DNA from: Turicibacter faecis
GTDB lineage: Bacteria; Bacillota_I; Bacilli_A; MOL361; Turicibacteraceae
DNA: 64,000 bases
Direction of reading: 5' to 3'
Assembly: GCF_037076425.1 (NCBI RefSeq)
Contig: NZ_AP028127.1
Span: forward strand, 1,146,001-1,210,000
Translations under genes and position numbers: made by a program
The notes under the pieces: model-generated
Database searches by the model: none
Told to the model about the DNA's origin: nothing
Seen by the model: only the letters and a program-made list of their open reading frames with translations
Shown here: one piece after another, positions 9,646-63,420 of the stretch
Position numbering within the stretch: the first letter of the stretch is position 1
Layout: each line of letters starts with the position of its first letter

Positions 9646-10293
9646 CTAGTCATAGTAATGCATGCCACCTTCTTGAAGTAGGGTCACGTACTTTTCCTTA
9701 TTTAGGTTGTATCGGGGCGTATCCTTTCCATAAATCAATTCTGCACAGTCAATTATCATTTGGGCTAATTTTTCATCGGTCATTCCTGGTTGAGCTTGGG
9801 GGAGGGTCCCTGTTCCTGTAATTTCCCCATCATTGGCTCGAATAGCGATTGCAAAGGCAGAGTGATTAAAGGTTACATTCATAAACTGGTCTTTCTCTTT
9901 ATGAAGTTCGTATCTCGGTTGAATGGTTTTAAGTTGATAGGTCTCAAAATCAGCACGATGAAAAGTTTGATGATTAAGAAGTGTCATGAATTTTATTTTA
10001 TTTAAGGTGTAAGCCTCACTGTCTTTTCCATAAAGGAGTTCCACCCCATCAAGCAACATTTGGACAAATTGTTGATCCGTCATTTTTTTCGTTGGATGGG
10101 CAATGTGACTAAATCCGATGATTTCACCCGTTCCCACTTTCATTTTAATCGTAAAAAAGGAATCGTCAAATTCGACGTTAATGAACTGTTGTTCATCCTT
10201 TTCCATCAGATACGGATCGGTCGTCGCGGCTTGCCCAGTGAGACCACACATCAATAACAAGAAACCGATTATAAAAAACTGTAATTTTTTCAT
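9646..10293 (-). CDS. Secreted protein made of two homologous repeats, unknown function
   Basis: 215 residues from the ATG at 10293 (AAAGGAG about 8 bases upstream; another ATG two codons earlier is too close to it). A signal peptide (KKLQFFIIGFLLLMCGLTG) ends in an A-x-A-like QAA site. The mature protein is two tandem copies of a module of about 85 residues. Both read E/HKDEQ/DQFxNVxFxxSxFxI, then GEIxGxxxxxxPxxxMTDxx, then LxYGKD and NKxKxxTLL. I do not recognise the module; it looks like a small secreted or wall-associated domain. No lipobox or LPxTG is visible. Flanking sequences give no functional hint. Confidence 0.7.
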   Translation of the reverse strand: MKKLQFFIIGFLLLMCGLTGQAATTDPYLMEKDEQQFINVEFDDSFFTIKMKVGTGEIIGFSHIAHPTKKMTDQQFVQMLLDGVELLYGKDSEAYTLNKIKFMTLLNHQTFHRADFETYQLKTIQPRYELHKEKDQFMNVTFNHSAFAIAIRANDGEITGTGTLPQAQPGMTDEKLAQMIIDCAELIYGKDTPRYNLNKEKYVTLLQEGGMHYYD

Positions 10294-35315: not shown

Positions 35316-35634
35316 CGGTAAAACCTCCTAACTATTAATCATTATCCGTCTTAAGCTAACTAGACCTGCCATTCACCGTTTATAAGCCTATCTAAAAGAT
35401 AATCAGGCTATCATCTGCTTCGTCTATTCATCTGGCAACCTCTGAAAAGCGAATTGAGACTTAGATAGAGATATGCCCAAAAGAACTGGATCAGACGGAC
35501 ATGTTTATCTAATAGTGTGAAACAAGTCTGTTAAACTATGTATGATCAGTTACTATTTTGCAAAAAAAACATAAACTGAGCGTTCATAAAAGATTTCCCT
35601 TTATAAATAACCATTTCTTGATCATCTATCCATA

Positions 35635-35662
35635 ACTTCTCATAAACTTCATTATGTTAACT
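35635..35662 (+). other. Dif-like site with non-canonical centre, inverted relative to dif
   Basis: XerC-like arm ACTTCTCATAA (35635-35645), six central bases ACTTCA, XerD-like arm TTATGTTAACT (35652-35662). The XerD arm is identical to that of the true dif at 35686-35713, and the XerC arm matches the Firmicutes arm ACTTCCTATAA at 9 of 11 positions, but the centre is unlike TATATA. It points the opposite way to dif. I infer an attachment-site-like or remnant Xer site. Confidence 0.65.
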
Positions 35663-35697
35663 TACTAATAGTAAAACTATTAGTAAGTTAACATAAT
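35651..35697. repeat. Perfect 22-bp inverted repeat with 3-nt loop joining the two Xer sites
   Basis: The left arm (35651-35672) begins ATTATGTTAACT and the right arm (35676-35697) is its exact complement, with loop AAA. The outer half of each arm is a XerD-binding arm; the inner ten bases (TACTAATAGT) are extra. There is no T-run, so it is not an ordinary terminator. Single-stranded, this DNA would fold into a hairpin presenting Xer arms. Confidence 0.9.
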
Positions 35698-35713
35698 ATA
35701 TATTATCGGTAGT
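35686..35713 (-). other. dif: dif, chromosome dimer resolution site (XerC/XerD)
   Basis: Read on the minus strand: XerC arm ACTACCGATAA, centre TATATA, XerD arm TTATGTTAACT. It matches the known Staphylococcus/Bacillus dif layout at about 25 of 28 positions as I recall that consensus. XerC and XerD recombine two such sites to resolve chromosome dimers at the division septum. The switch in dominant gene strand at this point supports its being the replication terminus. Confidence 0.9.
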
Positions 35714-36070
35714 TGTGTCTGTTTAAAATTAAACAGCGTCATATCAACGTTTATGAGTTCATCAAATCCGTTAAATTCGCCTTTTTTTATAAAAACCGTG
35801 GTCAAATTGGGGTCAAAACTCAAATATTTTAAAATGATTCTGCTCTTTTTTAAAACTAGATGGAGTCATTGGAATCACGCCTCTTACTTCGGTAATTTCG
35901 TAATAAAACGTGCGTAACCTGTTGCGTTTTTTATTCCCTTGAATGTGGTTCCCTTTATTTAATAATCCCTCCTTTTATTAAGTCGTGGGGAATTCCCTTT
36001 AAAGACTCCCTCTTAAACTTGTGGCATACAAAAAGGACCTCCATTTGAGATCCCAATAATCGATGATACA

Positions 36071-36559
36071 CTAATTCATAAAGCGGCCTTTTTCTTCCTT
36101 TTTTAATTCGCGCCCTTTGGACACTTCTGTTTTTACGATTTCCCACTCCACCTTCAACATTTTTTGGTATTCATCAAGCAGCTTGCGATAAGCAAAGTCT
36201 GATAAATCAGCTTCTGTTAAAACCGCCGTCGTCAGTTCATTCAAAAGAGTTAAAATCTTTCCATCCTGGGCCCAATTTAAATACAACTTTAAATACGCAT
36301 CCAACTCCACAACTTCCTCTTTAATCTGATGAAGTTGCCCCCTCGATGCTTTCTTATCAGAACTTAACATTCGACTATTTTTATATTGCTCAATAAGCGA
36401 ACAATACCTCGAAACAGCGCCCTTAATATCATGCATCCAGCGTAACTTCTCTTCCGTCATCCTCGCGCGAGATTGCGCCTCCTGATTCATTTCAAGATTA
36501 CATCTGACAATAATTAAAATTCCGAATAGTGCTAAAACAATGACTGCGATTTCTTCCAT
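36071..36559 (-). CDS. Membrane-anchored hypothetical protein (162 aa)
   Basis: GGGAGGG precedes the ATG at 36559. One N-terminal membrane helix (VIVLALFGILIIVRC) is followed by a charged, helical domain with KLRWMHDIKGAVSRYCSLIEQY, faintly like a histidine-kinase dimerisation helix with no kinase domain, and a lysine/glutamate-rich tail. Unknown function. It is the first gene right of dif. Confidence 0.65.
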   Translation of the reverse strand: MEEIAVIVLALFGILIIVRCNLEMNQEAQSRARMTEEKLRWMHDIKGAVSRYCSLIEQYKNSRMLSSDKKASRGQLHQIKEEVVELDAYLKLYLNWAQDGKILTLLNELTTAVLTEADLSDFAYRKLLDEYQKMLKVEWEIVKTEVSKGRELKKEEKGRFMN

Positions 36560-62347: not shown

Positions 62348-63328
62348 TTAAAACTGAATTAAATCTCCCGCATTTTCTTTCAACTTATCCACGGAGTGAA
62401 CGTATCGATTCGTTGTCGCAATGTTTTGATGGGCCGCAAAATCACGCACCTTCTCAATACTTGCCCCTCCACGAATCGCGAGAGTAATCGCCGTATGCCG
62501 TGTCGAATGCACCTTCAAATGCTTTGAAATCCCCGCCCGTTGACACGCCGTCTTCATCATATAATTGAGCGAACTCGGATCTAATTTTTCATTGTTACGT
62601 TTATTTCGTGAATGCCCCACAAACAAATAACTGGATGCATCCTTGTCATAATCACGCCCTGTTCGTGCCACATACTCATCAATCAACGCCTTCACCGGTG
62701 CCTGCACCTTCACCATGTCCCGCTTATTTCCTTTTCGTACAACATGAATGACCTCGTATTCCCCATAAGTAGCAAGGTCCTTCAATCGAATATGAATCAA
62801 TTCCGATTTACGTAGGGCGGTCGTCAGGGCTAAATAGATAATGGCCTTGTTTCTTAACTCGACCAATTTGGTTGTATCAAAAATCGCCAACAACTGCGTG
62901 CACTCTTGTTCCGTTAAGAACTCGGTCTCTTTCGATGTCACTTTAGGCTTTTCTTCTTTTAAATTACCAAATGGATTAAACCGAAGCAACGCTGTTCCCG
63001 TCTTGTTATCCTGATATTTTAACAACCACTTATAAAGTGAACTTAACGAAGACACCTTTCGATTAATTGTCGCTGTTGCACATCCTTTTCCCCTCAAATC
63101 TAACAAGTAGTGCTCCACATCAAACATATTAACCGCAATAATTTGCTCAAGTGTAATCTGTTCTATTGTCTCGACTTGAAAGAAATCTAAAATATCCCGT
63201 TCATACGAGATCGCCGTATACCGACTATTGCTTGCTTTTAAATTCAAAAAATGTCGAATAAAGTGAACTTTTTTCTCTGGCCCAACCGCCCGATTTCGAC
63301 TTAATATTAATTCCACCATCATCACCAT
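62348..63328 (-). CDS. Tyrosine recombinase/integrase (XerC/D-like)
   Basis: About 326 residues; I choose the ATG cluster at 63328-63319 because a likely -10 (TATGAT) lies just upstream of it, although the frame is open to 63388. SAM-like N-terminal domain (about 30-125), catalytic domain with Arg in TALRKSELIHIRL, Lys in VRKGNKRDMV, His-x-x-Arg in VHSTRHTAITLA, His in FAAHQNIATT and nucleophile Tyr in NRYVHSVD. All catalytic residues are present. It adjoins the BspA-like cluster, where it might invert or excise DNA, but inverted repeats for that were not found. Confidence 0.88.
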   Translation of the reverse strand: MVMMVELILSRNRAVGPEKKVHFIRHFLNLKASNSRYTAISYERDILDFFQVETIEQITLEQIIAVNMFDVEHYLLDLRGKGCATATINRKVSSLSSLYKWLLKYQDNKTGTALLRFNPFGNLKEEKPKVTSKETEFLTEQECTQLLAIFDTTKLVELRNKAIIYLALTTALRKSELIHIRLKDLATYGEYEVIHVVRKGNKRDMVKVQAPVKALIDEYVARTGRDYDKDASSYLFVGHSRNKRNNEKLDPSSLNYMMKTACQRAGISKHLKVHSTRHTAITLAIRGGASIEKVRDFAAHQNIATTNRYVHSVDKLKENAGDLIQF

Positions 63329-63386
63329 CTCTACTTGAAATATTCTCATCATAGCATAATTTTGACGAATATAAAAGAATGAGATC

Positions 63387-63420
63387 AAAAAAAGGAACCA
63401 AATTGGGTTCCCTTTTTTAA
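63387..63420 (-). terminator. Terminator of the DUF308 membrane-protein gene
   Basis: Minus strand AAAAAAGGGAACC, CAATTT, GGTTCCTTTTTTT; overlaps its stop codon region. Confidence 0.88.

Follow-up and report, generated by a model that had tools for sequence, protein, structure and literature searches.

The dif locus and its surroundings

The window analysed here, a 64,000-nucleotide stretch of the Turicibacter faecis chromosome, carries a dif site on its minus strand at positions 35686 to 35713. Read on that strand, the site is ACTACCGATAA-TATATA-TTATGTTAACT, with the XerC arm at 35703 to 35713, the centre at 35697 to 35702 and the XerD arm at 35686 to 35696. Genes for a FAD/Rieske oxidoreductase, HutP, an asparaginase and a RelA-like protein surround it. 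A scan of the 2.43-Mb complete genome found only this one exact dif, and it lies where the sign of the GC skew switches, near 30 to 34 kb of the window. In profile searches, one gene of this genome scored over the XerD cut-off, and a second XerC/D-type gene, which scored below it, is probably XerC; SMC is encoded as well. With its 11+6+11-bp layout, its uniqueness, its position at the skew switch and the presence of XerC/XerD genes, the site is a regular dif of the XerCD system.

Two further features of this region were observed. The minus strand at 62348 to 63388 encodes an Xer-type recombinase of 346 amino acids that satisfies neither the XerC nor the XerD nor the XerS cut-off. Each of the four complete genomes of the genus has a homologue about 19 to 27 kb right of dif, and others occur in G002 and G006. 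The intergenic stretch immediately right of dif (35714 to 35934) is 85 to 90% identical to that of G002, compared with 70 to 80% for the neighbouring genes, and no family was found for it.

A second, inverted Xer site faces dif

On the plus strand at 35635 to 35662 lies a second dif-like site of 28 bp, ACTTCTCATAA-ACTTCA-TTATGTTAACT, which is inverted relative to dif, so that the XerD arms of the two sites face each other. It is composed of an XerC-like arm (35635 to 35645), the centre ACTTCA (35646 to 35651) and an XerD arm (35652 to 35662). The XerC-like arm agrees with ACTTCCTATAA at 9 of 11 positions here and at 8 of 11 in the congeners G001 and G004, levels of agreement that are reached at 3.3e-4 and 2.3e-3 of window positions, respectively.

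The two XerD arms are identical and are joined by a perfect palindrome at 35651 to 35697, with 22-bp arms (35651 to 35672 and 35676 to 35697) and the loop AAA. Between the XerD arms lies a spacer of 23 bp (35663 to 35685; TACTAATAGT AAA ACTATTAGTA), compared with only 4 bp (TATA) in G001 and G004, and the palindrome of the focal genome (G000) runs 10 bp beyond the XerD arm. Around it, a longer pair of 42-nucleotide arms is 81% complementary. An earlier note, made from the sequence alone, had given the coordinates of both sites, the identity of the XerD arms and the perfect 22-bp repeat with its AAA loop, and all of these proved exact.

CTXphi-like phages enter dif through a single-stranded attP, which consists of two inverted dif-like halves that fold into a hairpin and has a centre unlike that of dif. 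The earlier note had proposed a similar hairpin here, and the computed single-strand fold indeed has that shape: a forked hairpin in which the XerD arms are paired, the centres unpaired and the XerC arms partly paired. Its predicted energy of -19.2 kcal/mol compares with a mean of -4.3 for shuffled sequences (z = -8.9), and none of 200 shuffles folded as well. Rfam matches of the hairpin fell below threshold and were set aside as chance hits.

Distribution in the genus and the class

Our sample of the genus comprised five species, the focal G000 and G001 to G004, one of which (G002) has Ns at the critical place. The second site is readable in G000, G001 and G004. These three were also the only ones among 395 genomes of the class in which exact XerD arms face each other 0 to 30 bp apart, while a reversed control pattern matched 0 of 395, and no second site was found in the 387 sampled class genomes outside the family. 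G002 retains the XerC arm ACTTCTCATAA, the same as in the focal genome, after which Ns take over and continue into the other palindrome arm; a TAATAATAGT facing its ACTATTATTA would count as compensatory. The size of this 310-N gap is no evidence for a hidden insertion, since two more gaps in the same contig also exceed the focal spacing by about 200 bp. G003 has a plain dif without the second site. The dif of G007, in the sister genus, is likewise plain. In G005 of that genus the XerD arm is directly repeated (L155, about 9990 to 10090), as a tandem duplication beside dif with its boundary at the position of XerD cleavage.

In a tree of XerC plus XerD, G003 branches outside the other four species with moderate support (aLRT/UFBoot 91.5/87), and a single gain of the second site is therefore the simplest history. 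For an integrative element, the earlier note had expected related termini to show either dif without the inverted arm or an element between such sites. The former was seen in G003, the latter in none of the five species. Nor is the pair present at dif in all relatives, which the note had named as grounds against an element: four of five species keep it (G002 in part), G003 is without it, and no element lies beside dif in any.

Conservation and matched changes in the XerD arms

Left of dif, all five species keep the same gene in synteny. Its G001 and G004 copies share 75% identity, and the intergenic stretch from it to the second site is for the most part unalignable between these two. The block CCTAAAATACC[C/A]ATAATCCT[A/C]ATTATGTAAACTTAT left of dif, which takes in the second site with its XerD and XerC-like arms and its centre, plus a few adjoining bases, is nevertheless the same at 33 of 35 positions, and dif itself is nearly unchanged too. 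These two species are the closest pair in the sample by SMC protein identity (90%, against 76 to 83% for every other pair).

In G000 the sequence of both XerD arms is TTATGTTAACT. G001 and G004 have TTATGTAAACT in both copies; this is the outgroup form, also carried by the dif of G003, G005 and G007, and both copies in G000 thus show an A -> T change. Since the arms are alike within each genome and differ between genomes, they have changed together. Stem and loop vary between species and the Xer arms are kept. We also observed an insertion in G004, immediately left of the second site: about 60 to 110 nucleotides that contain an inverted repeat of their own (L152, about 9900 to 9975).

The centre of the second site and viral Xer sites

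The centres of the three readable second sites, ACTTCA, TCCTAA and TCCTCA, fit NCYTMA, whereas the centre of dif is TATATA. All three conform to a phage-type pattern, ATAA-NCYTMA-TTATGTWAACT with an XerC-like arm, although they themselves defined this class; the consensus was built from them, and only the viral count against a reversed control is independent. That count gave 25 viral contigs, which belong to seven unrelated clusters and in every case have a good XerC arm, and 0 matches for the reversed-centre pattern. Moreover, the 21-mer ATAATCCTAATTATGTAAACT of the G001 second site is identical to one in the viral contig L258. Dif-like sites of one centre class thus recur in unrelated phage-type contigs, and these contigs also hold dif-like sites with many other centres. 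The likeness of the second site to a phage- or plasmid-type Xer site is suggestive rather than conclusive as to its origin, because the consensus came from three sites.

None of the viral NCYTMA sites checked is adjoined by an inverted XerD arm. As a candidate for a host chromosomal attB, the NCYTMA site gained no support: 0 of 99 Paenibacillaceae genomes carry one. In a separate observation, 91 IMG/VR stretches (L157-L247, L256-L261) hold strong Bacillota-type dif-like sites, mostly with non-dif centres; the centre CCTTAA recurs across unrelated viral clusters, one of which, the L216 group, encodes its own XerC-like integrase.

No mobile element accompanies the pair

The earlier note had seen no element around the pair, and our searches agree. 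DNA from 35560 to 36000 gave no match to phages and plasmids, and family scans of the genes neighbouring dif detected no phage gene or integrase. There is no further exact dif-like site in the focal genome and no second dif nearby.

Facing XerD arms in other lineages

In a scan of 85,000 species, an XerD arm faces a dif-like site at about 21 loci, most of them in Desulfobacterota-type MAGs; most other inverted-arm matches were rejected as chance palindromes without an XerC arm. In the Desulfobacterota-type loci the partner has no XerC arm, and the palindrome usually reaches 3 to 4 bp into the centre. Paenibacillus cymbidii has a full inverted dif-like partner at dif, with the centre CAATTC. 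Facing XerD arms have therefore evolved repeatedly, in keeping with an accessory role, and this does not imply a common cause. Around unselected dif sites XerD arms are weakly enriched (5 against 2.3 expected at one mismatch).

Several related arrangements were noted along the way. A true xerS (L122, 4354 to 5430; 345.6 bits, cut-off 267) lies about 560 bp from the dif/inverted-dif pair of P. cymbidii. In the Desulfobacterales MAG L092, the XerD side of dif bears the XerD arm three times in direct repeat (12-bp spacer), followed by a hairpin to dif. Two MAGs (L076 + L115 and L074 + L118) each carry two dif-like copies with the same XerD hairpin and different flanks. In the Bacillota species Ectobacillus panaciterrae (G401; L288, L292, L296, L298-L307), fifteen dif-like sites with good XerC/XerD arms and varied centres form a pdif-like set, against 0 for the reversed control pattern.

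A proposed accessory Xer site beside dif

From its anatomy, distribution and conservation, together with the matched change of the XerD arms, the phage-type centre and the lack of an element, we lean, with a little more than even confidence, towards reading 35635 to 35662 as a second full Xer site that became fixed opposite dif, head to head, in an ancestor shared by four of the five species and has been kept since as a putative accessory site for XerC and XerD. It would derive from a phage- or plasmid-type Xer site, and XerC and XerD would bind it as they do dif. It would not serve for strand exchange with dif, because the centres ACTTCA and TATATA do not match and the orientation would make a crossover between sister chromosomes harmful; such harm would also explain why its centre is unlike that of dif. 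Instead, the site may load extra XerD, together with XerC, on the XerD side of dif, for terminus duties such as SMC unloading or control over the timing of dif activation. The palindrome would follow simply from the two inverted XerD arms and, under this proposal, would be kept perfect because one and the same XerD has to fit both.

Among the conceivable roles, the loading of additional XerD appears the likeliest, perhaps to unload SMC; the alternative is that the site controls dif activation. We prefer the former by analogy, since, according to passages in PMC13220808 and PMC8523169, which cite Karaboja et al. 2021, XerD unloads SMC at the Bacillus subtilis terminus. A more elaborate version, which we offer tentatively and with rather less confidence, is that a domesticated phage-type site and dif form a composite head-to-head double site, in which the incompatible centre would bar recombination and a second XerCD/XerD complex would control dimer resolution or unload SMC.

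Several observations count against the accessory-site reading. G003 manages without the second site, the matched change of the arms could reflect palindrome correction during replication rather than selection for binding, and no cluster of XerD arms near the terminus appeared among the matches listed. The comparison also covers only five species, one of them broken by Ns.

Of the option raised by the earlier note that the pair is an attP-type site or its remnant, one form is a folded attP, or the scar of a CTX-type phage whose single-stranded genome was integrated by XerC via the hairpin and whose body disappeared later, so that a single attP half remained next to dif. The fold matches the forked hairpin of CTXphi attP(+), the centre class is shared with viral Xer sites, down to the 21-mer common to G001 and L258, and G003 is without the second site. 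Nonetheless, we consider this reading unlikely. No element is found in any of the five species, and the pair includes dif itself, whereas after CTX integration the functional dif is at the other end; the spacing is 4 to 23 bp rather than about 90 nucleotides, the viral NCYTMA sites checked have no adjoining inverted XerD arm, and a scar should decay, yet the site is conserved. The note's other option, a feature native to this lineage's dif, fits better, as the pair is common to four of five species, is conserved and has no element beside it in any.

The joint change of the arms, and a palindrome reaching 10 bp past the XerD arm in G000, would also be expected if a template switch had copied the XerD arm beside dif and the same process kept the copy perfect, so that the whole would be a neutral quasi-palindrome without function. 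A template switch would supply neither an XerC-like arm with 8 to 9 of 11 matches nor a different centre, however, and would leave the conservation of both over the G001/G004 divergence unexplained; we judge this quite improbable. About as improbable, in our estimate, is that the second site is a landing pad at which phages or plasmids with NCYTMA-centre Xer sites integrate by means of the host XerCD, sparing dif. That seven unrelated viral clusters share the centre class and the arms, with no hit for the reversed-centre control, is in its favour, but no occupied site was seen, this reading gives no account of why the host should conserve the site, and none of 99 Paenibacillaceae genomes carries such a site. 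Finally, a transcription or replication terminator that abuts dif by chance is very improbable: the stem is long, intergenic and near the terminus, and the gene at 36071 to 36559 runs toward it, but it has about 23% GC and no T-run, gives no Rfam match above threshold, and differs between species in stem and loop where the Xer arms are kept.

If the composite double-site version is true, the pair would represent a new terminus-site architecture, of which variants with facing XerD arms would have arisen independently elsewhere. A conserved partner facing dif offers a natural system for asking whether XerD at the terminus does more than dimer resolution, and whether tolerated extra Xer sites need a mismatched centre.

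Comparison with known systems

The pair resembles the attP(+) of CTXphi, an IMEX of the CTX type, in that two inverted dif-like sites fold in single-stranded DNA with paired XerD arms and open centres, as would expose an attachment site; this likeness is one of shape only. An attP of the CTX type is carried by, or terminates, a mobile element that lacks a recombinase of its own; neither in the window nor in the congeners does any element lie near dif. In a CTX lysogen attP1 and attP2 lie at one end of the prophage and the functional dif at the opposite one, whereas here dif is half of the pair. The two attP sites of CTXphi are about 90 nucleotides apart, compared with 23 bp (G000) or 4 bp (G001 and G004) between the XerD arms here, and the CTXphi attP has degenerate arms on the XerD side, where ours are perfect. 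Finally, in CTXphi the phage is present, while here there is none and the site is conserved across species. The pair is thus not of the CTX type, though its folded shape is similar.

The pdif/dif modules of Acinetobacter (PMC12907356) likewise include additional, inverted dif-like sites whose centres vary. Those modules flank genes, several per replicon, whereas the 4 to 23 bp between the present sites hold no gene module, and the second site is single-copy, chromosomal and conserved. XerD-dependent SMC-unloading sites (XDS) are defined by XerD binding that needs neither XerC nor recombination and by the loss of SMC there. As far as they are described in the sources cited above, they also place extra XerD-binding sequence at the terminus, and SMC and XerD genes are present here; by that description rather than by motif, the second site differs from them in having an XerC-like arm as well and in abutting dif.

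In its arms, its 6-bp centre, its position at the skew switch, its uniqueness and the XerD plus XerC/D-type partner, the focal dif is of the same kind as the Bacillota-type dif/XerCD system of B. subtilis. It differs in its facing second Xer site, which, congeners with the pair aside, the other dif loci examined in the family and in the sampled class are without. The usual view is that of one isolated dif per chromosome; here, dif has a conserved facing partner.
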